From contig JAHDPO010000018.1 in the NCBI GenBank assembly GCA_018434325.1, positions 1 to 64,000 on the forward strand: a DNA stretch of 64,000 bases, given 5' to 3'. The translations under genes were made by a program, and so were the position numbers. Below the pieces are notes generated by a model. The model did not search any database. It saw nothing but the letters and a program-made list of their open reading frames with translations, and had not been told where the DNA came from. Positions 6,857 to 19,992 of the stretch are shown here, in pieces; position 1 is the first letter of the stretch; each line of letters starts with the position of its first letter. The stretch is from Clostridia bacterium (GTDB taxonomy: Bacteria; Bacillota; Peptococcia; DRI-13; UBA5745).

Positions 6857-6950
6857 CAGGTTAGATGTCAGAAGTTTACGAGTATCGGTTTTGATGTTTT
6901 TTTGATTTTTACAGGGTTGTGTGGTCAGGTTGGATAAGGAGAAAATATTT

Positions 6951-8192
6951 GTGAATCAATATAGTCAAAATAATTGGAAACGAAACTTTCTTACCATTGC
7001 CGGAGGGCAGACAGTGTCGCTGATAGGCAGCGCCGCTGTGCAGTTTTCTCTAATATGGTGGCTGGCAAGTGAAACGGGATCCCCTATTATGATGTCCATC
7101 GCGGGCGTGTTCGCCTTTTTACCTCAGCTTATTCTCGGTCCTTTTGTGGGAGTATGGGTTGACCGACTTAGCCGTAAAACCGTCATCATAGCAGCAGACC
7201 TTTTCATTGGATTAGTAGCCCTTGTTTTTGCTCTGGTATTTTTGTTTGATACGCCACCCTATTGGTCGGTTTGTGTGGTGCTGGGTATTAGAGCTATAGG
7301 CAATGTTTTTCACAGTCCAGCCATCCAGGCAGCGGTACCCATGCTGGTGCCGCAACAGGAGCTGGTGCGTGCCAACGGATGGAGTCAGTTTATGCAGTCG
7401 GGTGCTTTCCTGCTGGGGCCTGTACTTGGCGCAGCCATGTATGCTTCCCTACCCCTTTGGATCATTTTATTGTCTGATTTGGCAGGCGCGCTTGTAGCCA
7501 GTGCTACTGTAGCACTTGTAAAAATACCTGATCCGGAGAGGAAAACACAACAAATTCCGCATTTTTTCCATGAAATGAAGGAAGGTGCGGCAGCCATATG
7601 GCAGGATAAAAAACTCTTTATCGTGACGGCGGCCACCCTGCTCGGTATGGTGTTTTACGCACCTTTATCCACCTACTATCCGCTTATGACAAGTGATTAC
7701 TTCAAAGCTGACGCATGGCATGCGAGTATGGTCAACTTCGGTTACGCAGGCGGGATGATGCTCTGCGCGATAATCCTTGGGAAATTCGGTACCATCAGAA
7801 ATAAATTTCCAGTTATTCATCTGGGACTTTTAGGTATGGGAACATCCTCGTTGCTCTGCGGTCTATTGCCTGCAGAGATGTTCTGGTTTTGGATATTTGC
7901 AGCATTATGCACACTACTTGGGGCAAGCAGCAACTTGTATAATATCCCCTATATCGCCTATATGCAGGAAACCATCCCGCCTGAACGAATGGGGCGTGCC
8001 TTTTCCTTAATTGGAAGCCTCAGCTCAGCTACTATGCCTTTGGGATTGCTCATAGCAGGCCCAATTACCGAAAATCGCGGAGTATCGTTGTGGTTTTTTG
8101 TATCCGGAATCGCACTCCTCATACTTACGCTGATAAGTGCCCTGTTCGTTCTTCCACGAAAGGCGGATAAGGTAGGGAAAAGTAATAGTTGA
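6951..8192 (+). CDS. MFS drug efflux transporter, Mef-like (paralogue 2)
   Basis: A 413-residue DHA3-type transporter with GQTVSLIGSAAVQFSLIWW in helix 1, the loop GVWVDRLSRK after helix 2, and AAVPMLVPQQELVRANGW before helix 5. It is predicted to be a 12-helix inner-membrane drug/proton antiporter. The start is the GTG at 6951, 9 bp after AAGGAG; an in-frame GTG at 6921 lies upstream of that site. It is the closest of the three to paralogue 1, sharing AIGNxFHSP and LGAAMYA. It sits directly behind the hsdM stump, so its original promoter may have been lost. The substrate is unknown. Confidence 0.87.
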   Translation: MNQYSQNNWKRNFLTIAGGQTVSLIGSAAVQFSLIWWLASETGSPIMMSIAGVFAFLPQLILGPFVGVWVDRLSRKTVIIAADLFIGLVALVFALVFLFDTPPYWSVCVVLGIRAIGNVFHSPAIQAAVPMLVPQQELVRANGWSQFMQSGAFLLGPVLGAAMYASLPLWIILLSDLAGALVASATVALVKIPDPERKTQQIPHFFHEMKEGAAAIWQDKKLFIVTAATLLGMVFYAPLSTYYPLMTSDYFKADAWHASMVNFGYAGGMMLCAIILGKFGTIRNKFPVIHLGLLGMGTSSLLCGLLPAEMFWFWIFAALCTLLGASSNLYNIPYIAYMQETIPPERMGRAFSLIGSLSSATMPLGLLIAGPITENRGVSLWFFVSGIALLILTLISALFVLPRKADKVGKSNS

Positions 8193-8301
8193 TTGTTGTA
8201 ACAATAAATTGGAATATAACGTTAGGATAAAACACTTTGCAGTATAGTATGGAAATGGGAATTTTTTCAACAACAAAAAGTTATTTGGGAAAAGAAATTT
8301 T

Positions 8302-8370
8302 ATGAATAACAATGAAACAACAAGTAAAGAAAACCTATTTGGAACGGGTAAACTTATTAGGGATAAATAG
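8302..8370 (+). pseudogene. Truncated duplicate of the 5' end of the lincosamide nucleotidyltransferase gene
   Basis: Bases 8302-8340 are identical to the first 39 bases of the gene at 9453 (MNNNETTSKENLF), and the preceding 15-20 bases are similar. The frame then diverges to GTGKLIRDK and a stop. The two copies flank the APH gene, consistent with a duplication or recombination event that inserted it. Confidence 0.8.
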
Positions 8371-8404: not shown

Positions 8405-9361
8405 ATGTATAACAGTATGGAACAAATGCTTTATAATGAATATGGAATACAAGTGCAGTCATTACAGCAGATTCCTGCGGGCTGGTCAGCATCTGCATGG
8501 AAAGTTCATTCTGAGTGTGGCGATTATTTTTTGAAAGTTTATGACAAGCATAAGCCCTCCACAAGAAACTGGATTGCGCGAATCGACAGCTATATGCCGG
8601 TCGTTCTGTGGTTACATGAGAACACAAAACTTCAAAAGAAAATGACCGCACCGATTCTAACCAGAGATAGAACTTATAAAAAGGAAGATTCATCTTTTTT
8701 ATACATGGTATTTCCCTTTATAGAAGGCTCAACCATATGCGATGAAAAATTGAAGCCGGAGCAAATACGGGAAGTTGCGCAAATAATTTCCAAACTGCAT
8801 TTTCATGGTGCTGAAATACCTGCATCGACAAACAGCTTAATTGAAACCTTTGATGTTTCATTTTGTACGACTTTGTCCAATCGGCTTGGGAATATACATG
8901 CTTCCGCTTCCTTACAAGAGGTACTAAAACCCTATATGACATTACTTGCCCAAGCGACAGAATCGCTTCAAAGCATGGGTCTCTTACTGCAAAATTCTAA
9001 AATGCGTTATGTCATGTGCCATACAGATCTTCACGGCTGGAATCTGATACAATCTAAAAACCTTATCCTTATTGATTGGGAGGGATTGAAGCTTGCACCT
9101 GTTGAAGCCGACCTCTTTTCATTTACCGGAACATTCTTTTTTGATTACGCATGGGAGGATTTCATGTCCATTTACCAAACCACACACAAGGACTATCAGA
9201 TTAATGTCGAGGCGATGCGTTTTTACAGGCTGCGGCGCAGATTGGAAGATATCCATGAGTTTGTCGAAAGCATCCTGTTTGACAAGCTCACACAGGATGA
9301 TATGAACCAATCACTTCGTTATCTCAAACAAGAATGTGAATTACTGCATGTCATGTGTTGA
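8405..9361 (+). CDS. Aminoglycoside phosphotransferase family protein, APH(9)-like
   Basis: A 318-residue kinase-fold protein that would transfer phosphate from ATP to an aminoglycoside or similar small molecule. The N-lobe starts GWSASAWKVH with the Lys of YFLKVY. The catalytic loop is CHTDLHGWNLI, equivalent to HGDLHxxN, and the metal-binding motif is LIDWEGLKLAP. The overall pattern and length resemble the spectinomycin kinase APH(9)-Ia more than APH(3'). The start ATG has GAGGT upstream. It is bracketed by two copies of the lnu 5' end. The substrate is an inference from similarity; other small alcohols are possible. Confidence 0.8.
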   Translation: MYNSMEQMLYNEYGIQVQSLQQIPAGWSASAWKVHSECGDYFLKVYDKHKPSTRNWIARIDSYMPVVLWLHENTKLQKKMTAPILTRDRTYKKEDSSFLYMVFPFIEGSTICDEKLKPEQIREVAQIISKLHFHGAEIPASTNSLIETFDVSFCTTLSNRLGNIHASASLQEVLKPYMTLLAQATESLQSMGLLLQNSKMRYVMCHTDLHGWNLIQSKNLILIDWEGLKLAPVEADLFSFTGTFFFDYAWEDFMSIYQTTHKDYQINVEAMRFYRLRRRLEDIHEFVESILFDKLTQDDMNQSLRYLKQECELLHVMC

Positions 9362-9452
9362 AAAGAACAGCTTACCTTACAAATGCCTATTTATATGTAG
9401 GTTTTGTATGCCTAAAATTAACAATAAAAAAACCTTTGGGAAAGGAGATTTT

Positions 9453-10451
9453 ATGAATAACAATGAAACAACAAGTAAAGAAAACCTATTTGATGTTTTA
9501 AATCTGTTAGAAGATTTAAATATAAAATATTGGATTGATGGTGGTTGGGGTGTTGATATCCTGACCGAAAAGCAAAATAGGGATCATAGAGATATAGACG
9601 TTGATTTCGATGGGGAATCTGAGGAAACCTTATTGGCTGCACTAAAAGATAAGGGATATAAAATCACGACTGATTGGAGTCCTGCACGCATTGAGCTGCA
9701 TCACCCGGAACTTGGCTATATAGATATACACCCTTTAATAATAGATGAAGATGGAAGTGCCAGGCAGGCTGATCTGCAAGGCGGCTGGTATCATTTTGAA
9801 GCAAAATGGTTTTCTTCTTCAATATTTGAAGGTAGAGTGATTCCATGTATTTCGGCAGAGGCTCAGAAAATTTTTCATAGTGGATATGAATTGAGAGAAG
9901 TTGATCATATCGATCTGAAAAATCTTGAAGCGCTGAAGAGAGCAATCTATTTAATCACCGGGGTTATGGCGTCCGGAAAATCTACAGTCGCTCAATTGCT
10001 TGCCTTAAAAATGGAAAAAGGAGTGCATCTGCGGGGCGATATATTTCGTAAAATGATTGTTGCCGGACGGGCTGACATGTCCGTACAGCCCTCCGAAGAA
10101 GCTATCCGACAACTGCATCTGCGTTACCGCTTGGCAGCTGAAACGGCAAAAACCTATTATGACAGCGGTTTTTCCGTTGTTTTGCAGGACAATTATTACG
10201 GTGAGGAACTGCCCCGCATGTTGAAGATGCTAGAGAATTACCCTGTTCATGTAACAGTGTTGTGTCCGGATGTGGAGACAGTAAAAAGGCGTGAAAAGAT
10301 GCGAGGGAAAACTGGCTATACCGGTTTTTCACTAGAAGCTCTGCATGCGGATTTCATGAGAAAAACCCCAAGACTCGGATTCTGGCTGGACAACTCAGAG
10401 CTGACGCCGGAACAATCCGCTCGGGATATTCTATTGCACTTCGGTGAATAA
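9453..10451 (+). CDS. Lincosamide nucleotidyltransferase (Lnu) fused to an AAA_33 P-loop kinase
   Basis: A 332-residue two-domain protein. Residues 1-163 are a complete Lnu(A/C)-type nucleotidyltransferase: WIDGGWGVDIL (27-37), the metal-binding RDIDVDFD (46-53), and a third acidic site in LGYIDIHP. This family adenylylates lincosamides. Residues 164-332 are a P-loop kinase with GVMASGKST (170-178), HLRGDIFRKM and REKMRGKTGY. That part resembles chloramphenicol phosphotransferase-like or gluconate-kinase-like AAA_33 proteins that normally start at the IYLITG segment. The junction has no stop or internal ATG, so this is a true in-frame fusion. The start ATG at 9453 has AAAGGAG 6-7 bp upstream. 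The kinase substrate is unknown. Confidence 0.85.
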   Translation: MNNNETTSKENLFDVLNLLEDLNIKYWIDGGWGVDILTEKQNRDHRDIDVDFDGESEETLLAALKDKGYKITTDWSPARIELHHPELGYIDIHPLIIDEDGSARQADLQGGWYHFEAKWFSSSIFEGRVIPCISAEAQKIFHSGYELREVDHIDLKNLEALKRAIYLITGVMASGKSTVAQLLALKMEKGVHLRGDIFRKMIVAGRADMSVQPSEEAIRQLHLRYRLAAETAKTYYDSGFSVVLQDNYYGEELPRMLKMLENYPVHVTVLCPDVETVKRREKMRGKTGYTGFSLEALHADFMRKTPRLGFWLDNSELTPEQSARDILLHFGE

Positions 10452-10517: not shown

Positions 10518-10991
10518 ATGAATAATATACTGATTGTTTATTATTCACTTTTTCATAATACGGCGAATTTAGCATTGGAAATAGCAGTACAAACAGGTGG
10601 AACATTAAGAGAATTGATTCCCGATACGAATTATTCCTTTGAATATAATACTGCTGCTAAAGAAGTAAGAAATCAGATTTCTCGAGGCTTTTGTCCAAAA
10701 TTAATATCTGGAAATGAATCAATAGACGATTATCAAGCAATATTTATAGGATCACCCAACTGGTTCAAAACTTTAGCTCCGCCAGTTATGAGTTTCCTTA
10801 GACTGAATGATTTTACGGGTAAAACAATCATACCCTTTTGCACACACGGTGGTGGAGGATTCGGCCAAATTGCAAATGATATAGCAAAAGAGTGCCCGAA
10901 GTCGAAAATACTACCCGGTATTGCTGTAACTGGTACTGTCACATCGGAAGAAGTCACGAATTGGCTTAAGATGATAGAATATGAATTATAA
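10518..10991 (+). CDS. Flavodoxin family protein
   Basis: A 157-residue short-chain flavodoxin-like protein. The FMN phosphate loop is YYSLFHNTANLA at residues 8-19. GSPNWFKTLAPPV is the conserved loop near the isoalloxazine ring, and CTHGGGGFG is the third FMN contact. Proteins of this clostridial type bind FMN and act as small electron carriers or NAD(P)H-dependent reductases in the cytosol. A good RBS (AAAGGGAG) precedes the ATG. It lies between two drug-modification genes with no obvious functional link. Confidence 0.85.
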   Translation: MNNILIVYYSLFHNTANLALEIAVQTGGTLRELIPDTNYSFEYNTAAKEVRNQISRGFCPKLISGNESIDDYQAIFIGSPNWFKTLAPPVMSFLRLNDFTGKTIIPFCTHGGGGFGQIANDIAKECPKSKILPGIAVTGTVTSEEVTNWLKMIEYEL

Positions 10992-11017: not shown

Positions 11018-11653
11018 ATGCAGTATGGTCCCGACCCAAACGCCATTTATCCAAATGAAAAGATAAAGAGCGTATGCTACATCAAGAATATTATCACCCG
11101 CCCTAATATCATCGTCGGCGATTACACGTATTACGACGACAATAACGGAGCGGGGCGGTTTGAAGAGCACGTGACGCATCATTACGAGTTTTTAGGCGAC
11201 AAACTCATAATCGGAAAATTCTGCGCCATTGCCAAAGGTATCGAGTTTGTAATGAACGGTGCCAATCACAGGATGTGCAGTATCACCACATACCCATTTA
11301 ACATCATGGGCCACGGTTGGGAAAAGGTGACACCGACGCTGGAAGAACTACCGTTCAAAGGTGATACCGTTGTCGGAAATGATGTGTGGATTGGGCAGAG
11401 TGTCACGATTATGCCCGGAGTGCATATTGGGGATGGGGCGATCATTGCAGCTAATTCCGTTGTAACAAAGGACATACCGCCTTATCATATCGCCGGAGGC
11501 AATCCAATCAGAATCATTCGGAAGCGGTTTGATGACGACCTCATCCGCTATCTGCTGGAATTGAAGTGGTGGGATTGGTCTGCTCAAAAGGTTTTCGAGA
11601 ATCTTGAAATCCTATGCAGTGATGATCTGACAAAAATAAAGGAAATCAAGTAA
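11018..11653 (+). CDS. Vat-like streptogramin A / xenobiotic O-acetyltransferase
   Basis: A 211-residue left-handed beta-helix acetyltransferase. The pattern IIVGDYTYYDD, then KFCAIAKGIEFVMNGANHRM, and the hexapeptide-repeat core VGNDVWIGQSVTIMPGVHIG with PPYHIAGGNP is that of the Vat/XAT family. These enzymes acetylate virginiamycin M-type antibiotics or chloramphenicol using acetyl-CoA; the catalytic His is likely the one in GANH. The length matches Vat enzymes (about 210-220). The start ATG follows CAAGGAGG. Chromosomal xenobiotic acetyltransferases look alike, so streptogramin activity is inferred from the resistance context. Confidence 0.83.
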   Translation: MQYGPDPNAIYPNEKIKSVCYIKNIITRPNIIVGDYTYYDDNNGAGRFEEHVTHHYEFLGDKLIIGKFCAIAKGIEFVMNGANHRMCSITTYPFNIMGHGWEKVTPTLEELPFKGDTVVGNDVWIGQSVTIMPGVHIGDGAIIAANSVVTKDIPPYHIAGGNPIRIIRKRFDDDLIRYLLELKWWDWSAQKVFENLEILCSDDLTKIKEIK

Positions 11654-12081: not shown

Positions 12082-12110
12082 TTGAGGTTGCAGTTAAATT
12101 ATAGTATAAT
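12082..12110 (+). promoter_or_regulatory. Promoter of the third Mef-like gene
   Basis: TTGAGG at 12082-12087 and TATAAT at 12105-12110 are separated by exactly 17 bp, a good sigma-A promoter. Transcription would start about 15-20 bp ahead of the leader hexapeptide. Confidence 0.7.
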
Positions 12111-12134
12111 TTAAAGTGAAAGCGGGGTAGAAAT

Positions 12135-12155
12135 ATGTATTTGATATTCATGTAA
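12135..12155 (+). CDS. Leader peptide MYLIFM
   Basis: A six-codon frame, ATG TAT TTG ATA TTC ATG TAA, encodes MYLIFM. As I recall, this is identical to MsrDL, the regulatory leader peptide of the macrolide-resistance gene msr(D), on which the ribosome stalls in the presence of macrolides with a cladinose sugar. It lies just downstream of a strong promoter and upstream of a terminator and a sequestered RBS. A weak purine-rich site (AGCGGGG) precedes it. Drug-dependent stalling here is inferred from the identity. Confidence 0.75.
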   Translation: MYLIFM

Positions 12156-12162
12156 TTTAGTT

Positions 12163-12320
12163 TTTAAGCACTGCCCTTTTTAGGGTTTATTTGTTGTGCT
12201 TAAAGACATATTTACATGAGTATATCCTCGCTTTTGAAGATCTCCTTGTAAAATTATGTCTTTCTGCACGAACAACGCCTTAGGCAGTTGTTCGTTTTTA
12301 ATTTTATATAAGGAGATTTC
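12163..12320 (+). promoter_or_regulatory. Attenuator: leader hairpin, terminator and RBS-sequestering stem
   Basis: Three nested structures are visible. TTTAAGCAC (12163-12171) pairs perfectly with GTGCTTAAA (12196-12204). ACGAACAAC (12269-12277) pairs with GTTGTTCGT (12287-12295) and is followed by TTTTT, an intrinsic terminator. The segment gaagatctccttgtaaaatt (about 12235-12254) is nearly complementary to 12300-12320, which contains the AAGGAG ribosome-binding site of the efflux gene. This arrangement can block both read-through and translation until ribosome stalling on MYLIFM refolds the RNA. Confidence 0.72.
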
Positions 12321-12324
12321 TATA

Positions 12325-13554
12325 ATGAACAGAATAAAGAATTGGAAGAAACAATTTGCTGTAATATACACAGGGCAGGCTTTTTCAATCTTGGGTTCTG
12401 CCGCAGTGCAGTTCGCTGTTATCTGGTGGCTGACCATCCAGACTGAATCCGCAATAACCTTGACGATTGCATCCTTAGTTGCCTTTCTCCCCAATATGTT
12501 AATCGGACCCTTTGCCGGTGTGTGGATCGACCGATACAACCGCCGAACAGTAATGATTTTAGCTGACGGTCTGGTAGCTGTATCCAGCATCATCCTTGGC
12601 GCAGCATTTTTACTTGTGGAAACACCCCCTATTTGGTTTATCTACATTGTTTTATTTTTGCGTGGATTGGGGAATACCTTTCACGGTCCAGCTATGCAAG
12701 CGGCAATACCCATGTTTGTGCCAGCAGATATGTTGACCAAAGCAGGGGGCTGGGGAAATATGATCCAATCAATATCCAACATGATGGGGCCTGTGCTGGG
12801 TGCTGCGCTTATGTCATTTCTACCTATTTCCTCCATTATGATTGTGGATATACTGGGAGCCGCTTTTGCGATAGTTTGCCTCCTATTTGTTATAATTCCA
12901 GATATTCCGCAAACCAATGAGAAGATGAGTGTATTGTCTGACATGAAGCAGGGCTTTATCGCAATGAAAGCAAATAAGCCTTTAATGGCTGTGTTTTCCC
13001 CCATGCTGCTGATGACCATACTTTATATGCCCTTAGGTTCTCTGTTCCCTCTGCTGGTACGCAACCACTTTATGGGCGAAGCATGGCACAATAGCATTGT
13101 GGAATTTGTCTTTGCAGGCGGATTGCTTCTTTCATCTTTGGTTATTGGTGTATGGGGCGGCATGAAAAGGAGGTTTTTCATGGCATCCTTAGCTATTGGC
13201 TTAATGGGTCTGTCTACACTGATTAGCGGAGCGTTACCGACAAGCGGTTTTTGGATATTTGCTATATGCTGCTTCTTCTTGGGTGCCTCTGGCACATTTA
13301 TGAATGTTCCAGTTATGGCCTATGTTCAAGAAAGCATTGCACCTGAAATGATGGGCAAGGTGTTTTCCCTTTTGATGACCGCCATGACTCTTTCTATGCC
13401 GATAGGCTTACTTGTTGCGGGTCCGGTTGTTGAGGTGATAGGTGTAAACACATGGTTTTTCTGGTCAGGTGTTGTACTGATGGCAGATGCTATTCTCTGC
13501 CGCCTTTTGACACGACGCTATGACAAAGTAACAATGAAACCGCAAGTGGACTGA
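12325..13554 (+). CDS. MFS drug efflux transporter, Mef-like (paralogue 3), leader-regulated
   Basis: A 409-residue DHA3-type transporter: GQAFSILGSAAVQFAVIWW in helix 1, GVWIDRYNRR after helix 2, and AAIPMFVPADMLTKAGGW before helix 5. It is the paralogue closest in motif style to classical Mef (FHGPAMQAAIP). It should export macrolides or a related drug through the membrane. The start is the ATG at 12325, 8 bp after AAGGAG; an open frame extending upstream to 12256 runs through the terminator hairpin and is not the start. Expression is probably induced by drug through the MYLIFM leader. No msr-type ABC-F gene follows, unlike classical mef-msr operons. Confidence 0.87.
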   Translation: MNRIKNWKKQFAVIYTGQAFSILGSAAVQFAVIWWLTIQTESAITLTIASLVAFLPNMLIGPFAGVWIDRYNRRTVMILADGLVAVSSIILGAAFLLVETPPIWFIYIVLFLRGLGNTFHGPAMQAAIPMFVPADMLTKAGGWGNMIQSISNMMGPVLGAALMSFLPISSIMIVDILGAAFAIVCLLFVIIPDIPQTNEKMSVLSDMKQGFIAMKANKPLMAVFSPMLLMTILYMPLGSLFPLLVRNHFMGEAWHNSIVEFVFAGGLLLSSLVIGVWGGMKRRFFMASLAIGLMGLSTLISGALPTSGFWIFAICCFFLGASGTFMNVPVMAYVQESIAPEMMGKVFSLLMTAMTLSMPIGLLVAGPVVEVIGVNTWFFWSGVVLMADAILCRLLTRRYDKVTMKPQVD

Positions 13555-18168: not shown

Positions 18169-19992
18169 TTACGTTTTGAGCACATTGCGGCGGCGCATGG
18201 TGTTTTCAGACGGTTCTGCCACCGGGGTATGAAGGGTTCCTCTTCCGGTGGTTGGTTCCAGCATCTCCCCGGTTTCTTCGTCCACCATAAGGCAGGCCGT
18301 GTGCTTGCGGACGATGTTTTCCTCCAGCATCTGCTTATCGGCGTAGACCACCTTTCGGTGCGCTTTTTCCTCCACAGTATAAGGCTCTCCAAAACGAATA
18401 CCCCAATCAAGGAACAGCCGCAATTTTGTCCTCATGGGATGGGTGCCGGTTTTCATCACAACAAAGTTACCCTTGGGAATGGATTTTAGTTCATCAGGCG
18501 TCATGAGGGGACGCTCCATCATCTGTAAGGACTGGCTGGGATCGTTCTTTCCGCGGCTTACGCTGCCACTCATGACGGTGCGGCTGCCCAATGCTTTACT
18601 CAGCACTTCGGCGGTTTGACTGTTGGGAGCGAATCCACCGAAGATGGTGTCCTGGCAGTTGTCCACGATGATTTCCGAACCCTCTTTGCCGTAATTCTTT
18701 TCGAGCTGACCGAAGGACTGGATGATCGGTACCATCGCAAGCCGGCGTGAGCGGCTGGCTGAAAAAATCAGCTCCAGTGACTCGATGGCTGGGAGCGTTC
18801 CGAGCTCATCGCAGTAGAACATCACGCGGTTTTTCAGTTTACCGCCGTTTTCATCCGCAACGGCAAGGATCTCCCGGTAGAGCTGTTGGATCATAAGGCT
18901 GACCATGAAATACTTGGTCAAATCTTCTTCGGGAAGTACGATAAACAGAGCGGATTTTTCATTACAGAATTTCTCCGCATCAATGGCTGTTTCAAAACAG
19001 AGAATCTGTTCCATTTCGGAGTCGAGAAAGGAATTCAACCGGGATAGCACAGTGGAGAGTACCGATGCCATGGCCTGCTCTGCGGAATTTAGGGCCGCTC
19101 CTGCAAACCAGCGAGCCTTGTGGTCGGAAGGCAGTTTGTCCATTAATAGCTGGAACTGGCTTTTCCCCTTTACCTTGCTGGGCGCCAGCAAGTCCTGAAC
19201 CAATTTGAACACGCTGATGATATGGCGGCAGTCCACCTTTTTCCCATCTGCCTCAGTGGGCGGCAGATACTCGGCAATCAGCAAAATCACTGAGGAGAGG
19301 AGTCCTTCAGCAGCATCATAAAAAAACTGATTTTGTCCGTAATTCTCCCCACTGGCGTTGATGATGGTTTTGGAGATAATCTTGGCGTATTTCTCTGCTT
19401 TCGCCTTTGCTACAAGGTTATTTTCGTCGGCAAGGTACGCATCCATGTAGGTGTTCACCAGATGGAGCATATTGTTGCCGTCTGAGCGAGTGGGATTTCG
19501 AAGATCGATAACCGCCACATGGTAGCCGTAGTAGTCGCGGGCGATGGCTCCGTAGTTCCGATACAGGTCGCCCTTGGTGTCGGTGGCCAGGAAACTCATA
19601 CCGGAGGCACAGGCATATTCCAGATTGGGGTATAAAAAGTATGCGGTTTTCCCGACGCCGGACGCACCGATCATGAGACAGTGGACATCGTCCTTGTCCA
19701 CCATTGCCGTGACTTTATTTTTTGCGCCTACGCTTCCGAGAATGATTCCCTGCTCGGCGGCAGTGGGGAGGCATTGCCCCTGCCTCCACAGCTCCGGCTG
19801 AAAGGGGATGTGCTGATAGGTATTTTTGATTTCCTGCTTAGAAGCGAACCGAGCCGTGCCATGCTGGCCATCGCCCACCGTGCGGGACTTGATCCCGTTC
19901 AAGGTATAATAGTGAGCCAAAAGAGAAAGGCCGCCGATGACGAGAAACATCACGGCGGCCACTGCGATTAGAATGTAGACTTGAGATTGCAT
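18169..19992 (-). CDS. VirD4/TraG-type type IV coupling protein
   Basis: A 607-residue conjugation coupling ATPase that recruits the relaxase-DNA complex to the secretion channel. One N-terminal membrane segment (residues 7-29) precedes the cytosolic motor. Walker A is GASGVGKTA (109-117), and the Walker B region is RVMFYCDELGTLP, where the usual hydrophobic-DE pattern is kept. SFLATDTKGDLYR and SRRLAMVPIIQSFGQLEKNYG are conserved family blocks. Only one TM helix is predicted, as in short Gram-positive forms. A diverged fragment of a second such gene lies at 640-1035. AAAGGAG precedes the ATG. Confidence 0.93.
   Translation of the reverse strand: MQSQVYILIAVAAVMFLVIGGLSLLAHYYTLNGIKSRTVGDGQHGTARFASKQEIKNTYQHIPFQPELWRQGQCLPTAAEQGIILGSVGAKNKVTAMVDKDDVHCLMIGASGVGKTAYFLYPNLEYACASGMSFLATDTKGDLYRNYGAIARDYYGYHVAVIDLRNPTRSDGNNMLHLVNTYMDAYLADENNLVAKAKAEKYAKIISKTIINASGENYGQNQFFYDAAEGLLSSVILLIAEYLPPTEADGKKVDCRHIISVFKLVQDLLAPSKVKGKSQFQLLMDKLPSDHKARWFAGAALNSAEQAMASVLSTVLSRLNSFLDSEMEQILCFETAIDAEKFCNEKSALFIVLPEEDLTKYFMVSLMIQQLYREILAVADENGGKLKNRVMFYCDELGTLPAIESLELIFSASRSRRLAMVPIIQSFGQLEKNYGKEGSEIIVDNCQDTIFGGFAPNSQTAEVLSKALGSRTVMSGSVSRGKNDPSQSLQMMERPLMTPDELKSIPKGNFVVMKTGTHPMRTKLRLFLDWGIRFGEPYTVEEKAHRKVVYADKQMLEENIVRKHTACLMVDEETGEMLEPTTGRGTLHTPVAEPSENTMRRRNVLKT

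Follow-up and report, generated by a model that had tools for sequence, protein, structure and literature searches.

A MYLIFM leader peptide and a predicted ribosome-mediated attenuator upstream of the macrolide efflux gene mef(B)

The window analysed here is a stretch of 64,000 nucleotides of a Clostridia bacterium (contig JAHDPO010000018.1 of assembly GCA_018434325.1), and it carries between 6921 and 13554 a cluster of genes of the types that give resistance to ribosome-targeting drugs. The genes of this cluster, along with the features of the leader region in front of the last of them, are listed in Table 1. A preliminary description of the DNA had called this last gene Mef-like; it does encode an MFS macrolide pump, and as its score against the NCBIfam model lies above the curated cut-off (924 against 800 bits), we assign it to mef(B) itself, with the start at 12325. 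The same description had remarked that the pump has no ABC-F gene nearby, and this holds, as there is no msrD-like gene in the window and the ABC proteins encoded in the genome are only distant from msrD (26-45% over parts).

Table 1. Genes of the resistance cluster and features of the mef(B) leader region
Feature	Position	Strand	Basis or remark
Mef-type MFS gene	6921-8192		
APH-type kinase gene	8405-9361		
Lnu(A)/Lnu(AN2)-type nucleotidyltransferase gene, fused to AAA/chloramphenicol-phosphotransferase-like kinase domain	9336-10451		
Flavodoxin gene	10518-10991		
Vat-family acetyltransferase gene	11018-11653		
Sigma-70-type promoter, TTGAGG-17-TATAAT	12082-12110	+	sequence match; 17-nt spacer common to all leader variants
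Attenuator fold (predicted, without stalled ribosome)	12118-12235	+	RNA folding; z -6.93; 98% of cells paired in five variants
Leader Shine-Dalgarno (SD), GGGG	12124-12127	+	7 nt 5' of leader ATG; GAGG in L035 and L041
Leader ORF, MYLIFM-UAA	12135-12155	+	peptide same as MsrDL (PMC10314930)
Small terminator-like hairpin T1, GCCCU-UUUU-AGGGU + UUAUUUG	12173-12192	+	sequence; similar hairpin equally placed after MQSLFL leaders
Antiterminator (predicted)	12191-12275	+	predicted when a stalled ribosome covers 12117-12165
Anti-SD segment	12238-12256	+	pairs with 12299-12319; overlaps 3' half of antiterminator; z -6.78 together with T2
Intrinsic terminator T2, 9-bp + 3-bp stem, U5	12268-12299	+	-15.3 kcal/mol; z -4.32
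mef(B) SD, AAGGAGAT	12310-12317	+	sequence and folding
mef(B), macrolide efflux MFS transporter, 409 aa	12325-13554	+	NCBIfam NF000051.1, 924.2 bits (cut-off 800); Pfam MFS_1 and MFS_3

The cluster adjoins conjugation-like ORFs (from 18169 onward; judged from sequence only). Part of a large ORF on the minus strand (18169-19992, VirD4/TraG-like by eye) is repeated with 83-89% identity at 646-1017 and 18894-19266, the former copy lying 5' of the first Mef-type gene, so that a copy lies on either side of the resistance segment. Likewise, the first 73 nt or so of the lnu-type gene, comprising the SD, the start and the first codons, are present twice (8269-8341 and 9420-9492), and the upstream copy runs into a short broken frame ahead of the APH-type gene, as if a gene had been inserted there by recombination. 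No convincing leader precedes either of the window's two other Mef-type genes (at 1127 and 6921).

Upstream of mef(B), the leader ORF ATGTATTTGATATTCATGTAA encodes MYLIFM with UAA directly after it. As stated in the preliminary description, this is the peptide published as MsrDL (Fostier et al., 2023; PMC10314930), which is also mentioned in PMC8005064; in the literature searched, MYLIFM is described only for msrD. The frame is the sole match to the peptide with its stop codon in the window, even when three mismatches are allowed (0.06 expected), and the only exact match in its own 3.83-Mb genome. We found the same leader in front of mef(B) in Oscillibacter ruminantium (L110), a Clostridia MAG (L055), a Treponema MAG (L035, in which Mef(B) is 90% identical at the amino-acid level) and enterobacterial plasmids. 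All 21 nt of the leader ORF are identical across these mef(B) variants, against 86% identity over the first 650 nt of mef(B) in L035.

A promoter had also been proposed in front of the leader, and it can be seen in Table 1 that one is present. Taken alone, the single match to TTGAGG-17-TATAAT is within chance expectation (38 promoter-like sites observed against 30 expected in 11 kb). Every locus variant, however, has a TTNANN-17-TANNAT promoter (9-11 of 12 matches) at the equivalent place, despite differing upstream DNA: 5' of about 12112 the window, L035 and the Escherichia coli plasmids are mutually unrelated, and yet in each of them a -35 and a -10 element, spaced by 17 nt, lie at a similar distance. 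We conclude that the leader and mef(B) have been joined to different promoters, and that one was retained every time. The GGGG that serves as the leader SD in the window is weak, which counts against the regulatory model set out below.

The leader transcript (12117-12300, 184 nt) folds with a minimum free energy of -61.6 kcal/mol, well below dinucleotide shuffles (z = -6.93); a scan of the window with Rfam gave no family. The predicted attenuator consists of three nested helices, of which 12118-12127/12226-12235 covers the leader SD and 12144-12155/12212-12223 covers the last leader codons and the stop, while the innermost is the 9-bp hairpin noted earlier (12163-12171/12196-12204), lengthened by folding to 12 bp (12160-12171/12196-12207). 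This fold also sequesters the 5' half of an alternative structure, the antiterminator, in which 12191-12199 and 12202-12216 pair with 12247-12252, 12255-12263, 12266-12269 and 12271-12275. The antiterminator helix (12191-12216/12247-12275) thus competes for bases with three elements, namely the attenuator, the base of T2 and the anti-SD segment. Of the antiterminator cells, 98.7% are paired in five variants, and the segment 12196-12273 alone has a z of -6.24. The intrinsic terminator T2 is formed by 12268-12276 pairing with 12287-12295, followed by the U tract, and among the variants its outer stem is invariant and its loop varies. The complementarity of the leader to the SD of the pump was likewise borne out: ATCTCCTT (12240-12247) is complementary to AAGGAGAT, within a 19-bp helix (12238-12256/12299-12319) that has mismatches in L035 and in the E. 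coli copies. Of the pairs of either alternative fold, 98-99% are preserved across five distinct variants, compared with 35-56% when the partners are slid. Only one-sided changes were seen among these five variants, with no compensatory double changes, the variation being too low for covariation.

To place a stalled ribosome on this RNA we relied on MsrDL: erythromycin or azithromycin arrests the ribosome there when M6 occupies the P site and the UAA comes next, and the toeprint falls at +31 to +33, counted from the first base of the leader (PMC10314930). On the mef(B) leader this would put the 3' edge of the ribosome at 12165-12167, and the stalled state was accordingly modelled by barring bases up to about 12166 from pairing, in six sequences. 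We found that the modelled stall turns the fold over. With polymerase just past T2, the antiterminator formed in all six sequences (the window, L035, L055, L110 and the two E. coli copies) with P = 0.99-1.00, and the probability of the basal pair of T2 fell from 0.98-0.99 to 0.13-0.23. In silico, therefore, attenuator and antiterminator exclude each other according to the position of the ribosome, and T2 is disrupted at its base only. The middle of T2 still forms at equilibrium in the stalled fold (P 0.58-1.0), which counts against the model; as the antiterminator removes only the basal pairs, antitermination would depend on the order of folding or be partial. The openness of the mef(B) SD rose on modelled stalling from 0.05 to 0.51 in the window and from 0.05 to about 0.5 in the E. 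coli copies; in L035 it went from 0.49 to 0.59, and in the full-length fold of L110 it stayed at 0.00. The SD is thus predicted to be sequestered in the window, in L055 and in the E. coli copies and less strongly so in L035, and for L110 no relief by the stall is predicted, which makes the translational half of the model the less secure. The preliminary suggestion that the leader may control both termination and translation therefore agrees with what folding predicts, with the reservations that only the base of T2 is disrupted and that the translational part is weak in L035 and unrelieved in L110.

We consider it likely that the mef(B) leader is a macrolide-inducible, ribosome-mediated attenuator, which would act primarily on transcription and probably on translation too. 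Without drug, MYLIFM would be translated and released, the leader RNA would adopt the attenuator fold, T2 would form, and most transcripts would end at about 12300; those that read through would carry a sequestered mef(B) SD. With a cladinose macrolide in the tunnel, the nascent MYLIFM would halt the ribosome once codon 6 is in the P site and the UAA has entered the A site, a step that we infer from the biochemistry of MsrDL. The stalled ribosome would cover the RNA to about 12165-12167 and open the attenuator helices, freeing 12191-12216 for pairing with 12247-12275. Since the antiterminator helix so formed draws on bases at the foot of T2 and within the anti-SD segment, transcription would continue and the mef(B) SD would be opened. 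The sequence elements, the identity of the peptide, the folds with their conservation and the family of the gene are what the analysis shows; antitermination in vivo, control of translation and the specificity for the drug are likewise inferred.

The strongest competing explanation, which we nevertheless regard as unlikely, is a purely translational attenuator of the ermC kind, in which the stall frees only the SD of mef(B), T2 being a minor or a constitutive partial terminator. This would fit the 19-bp helix between SD and anti-SD (z of -6.78 with T2), the survival of the middle of T2 in the stalled fold, and the chromosomal MQSLFL relatives described below, in which pairing of the leader ORF with the SD of the pump points to a translational design. 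However, T2 is strong and has a U tract, its outer stem is invariant where its loop is variable, and the SD helix is mismatched in L035 and in the E. coli copies. Moreover, it is on transcription that MsrDL and the mef(E) leader act (PMC10314930, PMC4335068).

The mef(B) leader shares with the MsrDL/msrD attenuator of the Streptococcus Mega element an identical MYLIFM-UAA, a downstream intrinsic terminator and, as predicted for mef(B), a ribosome-mediated control of macrolide resistance. The differences are considerable: the mef(B) leader would control an MFS pump and not an ABC-F protein; it has its own promoter and a predicted helix that sequesters the SD; and it is 170 nt long with nested alternative helices, whereas that of msrD has a single compact terminator and a competing hairpin. 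T2 lies more than 100 nt 3' of the stop codon, whereas in msrD an arm of the terminator lies under the stalled ribosome. The 21-nt ORFs of the two leaders differ only synonymously, in Leu codons (TTG/CTT/TTA) and Ile codons (ATA/ATT), a pattern that speaks for selection on MYLIFM itself. Homology to msrD was also sought in the RNA after the stop codon and was rejected (score 14, with 716 of 1000 shuffles as good), so that the msrD attenuator has not been moved as a whole. It had been proposed that the sensor was joined here to a different resistance gene; MYLIFM does stand before mef(B) without msrD, but only the 21-nt ORF is shared, which does not agree with a transplanted msrD sensor.

In the mef(E)/mel attenuator the leader peptide is MTASMRLR (Chancey et al., 2015; PMC4335068). 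Like the mef(B) leader as modelled, the attenuators of mef(E)/mel and of mef(A)/msr(D) control a mef gene; in all of them the leader is long, with a hairpin early on, an intrinsic terminator near its end and an anti-attenuator built from distant segments. In contrast to mef(E)/mel, the mef(B) leader encodes MYLIFM and not the +x+ motif peptide MTASMRLR, its terminator and anti-attenuator sequences differ, and no msrD follows. We found MTASMRLR before Mef(A)-type genes (L123, L124) and not before mef(B). A 22-nt stretch of the mef(B) leader matches these two MTASMRLR leaders (0 and 3 of 1000 shuffles as good), and the sequences suggest that MYLIFM was either grafted onto a mef-type attenuator or arose there. 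The ermC-type translational attenuators are similar in that the SD of the resistance gene is sequestered and predicted to open when the leader stalls; mef(B) differs from them in having an intrinsic terminator inside the sequestering helix and a leader that is expected to stall at termination. As modelled, the mef(B) attenuator works like those of MsrDL and mef(E) and belongs wholly to neither. The stalling peptide MYLIFM and the gene mef(B) were already known; the switch that joins them may be new, as no link between mef(B) and a leader peptide was found in the literature searched, which did not extend to subscription papers, the original description of mef(B) among them.

The same gene and leader are carried by sul3-linked plasmids of Enterobacteriaceae, with DNA 97% identical from 12112 to past 13560. 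The region just 5' of the mef(B) start was found in 101 PLSDB records, all from Enterobacteriaceae (hosts include E. coli, Klebsiella and Salmonella), and in 76 of them one match spans at least 80% of the 261-nt leader query. The plasmid order is IS26 - promoter - leader - mef(B) - SDR - GrpB - sul3, and the order mef(B)-SDR-GrpB is found in the window too. The match begins at 12112/12113, directly after the native -10, and at this point the plasmids have another promoter, TTGAAA-17-TACAAT. In L119 and L120 the replacement promoter lies on DNA of mixed origin, parts of which occur in 1381 plasmid records. Around 20 of the 68 E. coli genomes with the segment have a partial match only. In the one that was inspected, the plasmid pNT1F10-tetX4 (L160:2440-2580), IS26 abuts 12249, so that promoter, leader and anti-SD are gone and T2 and mef(B) are left; no clear hybrid promoter was seen in this truncated form. 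About 20 E. coli genomes seem to have it, and this counts against the attenuator model. That leader-removing IS26 truncations are tolerated in some plasmids would suit a leader that is a relic and no longer regulates, mef(B) being expressed at a constantly low level by readthrough, as would the absence of any report of mef(B) induction from the literature searched. We hold this to be quite improbable, since the leader ORF and the alternative helices have been conserved in the window, in Oscillibacter, in the Treponema MAG and in the enterobacterial plasmids while the promoter was exchanged.

The occurrence of MYLIFM leaders was assessed by scanning a species-level genome collection, viral contigs and one further genome for the peptide with its stop codon, the counts being lower bounds. 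There were at least 130 places, at least 75 of them preceded by an SD. Among the matches listed, 64 of the 75 SD-preceded leaders stand before msrD, two before a truncated msrD (L024, L109) and four before mef(B), and one (L041) is of the mef(B) type but lacks the gene. SD-preceded MYLIFM does occur before a gene that is not of the ABC-F class, and otherwise almost only before msrD, with no third gene class behind it among the matches listed. The remaining four (L002, L007, L038, L059) were considered as leaders and rejected, as they look like chance. None of the 55 matches listed that have no SD stands before msrD or mef(B), and the viral contigs gave 11 pattern matches, mostly without SD and before unrelated DNA, and no relative of mef(B). 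Beyond the window, mef(B) is preceded by the leader in the Oscillibacter genome, the Clostridia MAG, the Treponema MAG and most of the 101 enterobacterial plasmid records. A random six-codon ORF is practically excluded as the origin of the mef(B) leader by its conservation at five variant loci: the SD-less matches before unrelated genes (55 of the 130 listed) show that random matches do occur genome-wide, but only 0.06 were expected in the window at three mismatches and this one adjoins a macrolide pump. In L041 (6173-6330) the mef(B)-type leader is conserved up to the anti-SD and is followed by another terminator-like hairpin and then by an apparent small heat-shock protein gene, mef(B) being absent from that genome.

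A second hexapeptide was found before two relatives of mef(B), one 72% identical and encoded in the same genome (L126; contig C6:175999-177195, leader at 177280-177300, minus strand), the other 70% identical and in a genome of the same genus (L122). Both have a good SD followed by MQSLFL-UAA, and their leader ORFs differ by three synonymous changes only. The MQSLFL ORF pairs with the SD region of the pump itself (z of -3.9 in L122 and -1.8 in L126), and a modelled stalled ribosome would remove this pairing, which gives the leader the look of a translational attenuator built on another peptide. In MsrDL, all induction is lost on the substitution L3A or I4A (PMC10314930); as MQSLFL has a serine at position 3, the drug or the contact may differ. 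It is conceivable, though we would lean slightly against it, that short hexapeptides that stall at termination serve the mef(B) lineage as interchangeable macrolide sensors, MYLIFM being coupled to an RNA switch that is unrelated to the one of msrD and would control termination and translation, and MQSLFL-UAA, which has no L3, to pairing of the ORF with the pump SD.

On multiresistance plasmids of Escherichia, Klebsiella and Salmonella, which come from pigs, from meat and from people, mef(B) is widespread; to our knowledge, resistance databases record its coding sequence only. If the leader works as modelled, resistance by mef(B) would be inducible by cladinose macrolides, so that tests without induction may underestimate it, and its regulation would be altered wherever an IS26 rearrangement cuts the leader. 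One stalling peptide would then have been reused in an unrelated RNA switch, and MQSLFL offers a ready test of which residues let a chain of six sense a macrolide.

More divergent mef relatives (L144, L145, L158 and L159, 48-53%; L157, 64%) have neither a MYLIFM nor an MQSLFL leader. In L144, L145 and L159 the Mef-type gene, 48% identical to Mef(B), comes directly after a glycosyltransferase-like ORF, with no leader peptide, and the two genes are possibly a pair for the modification and export of a macrolide.
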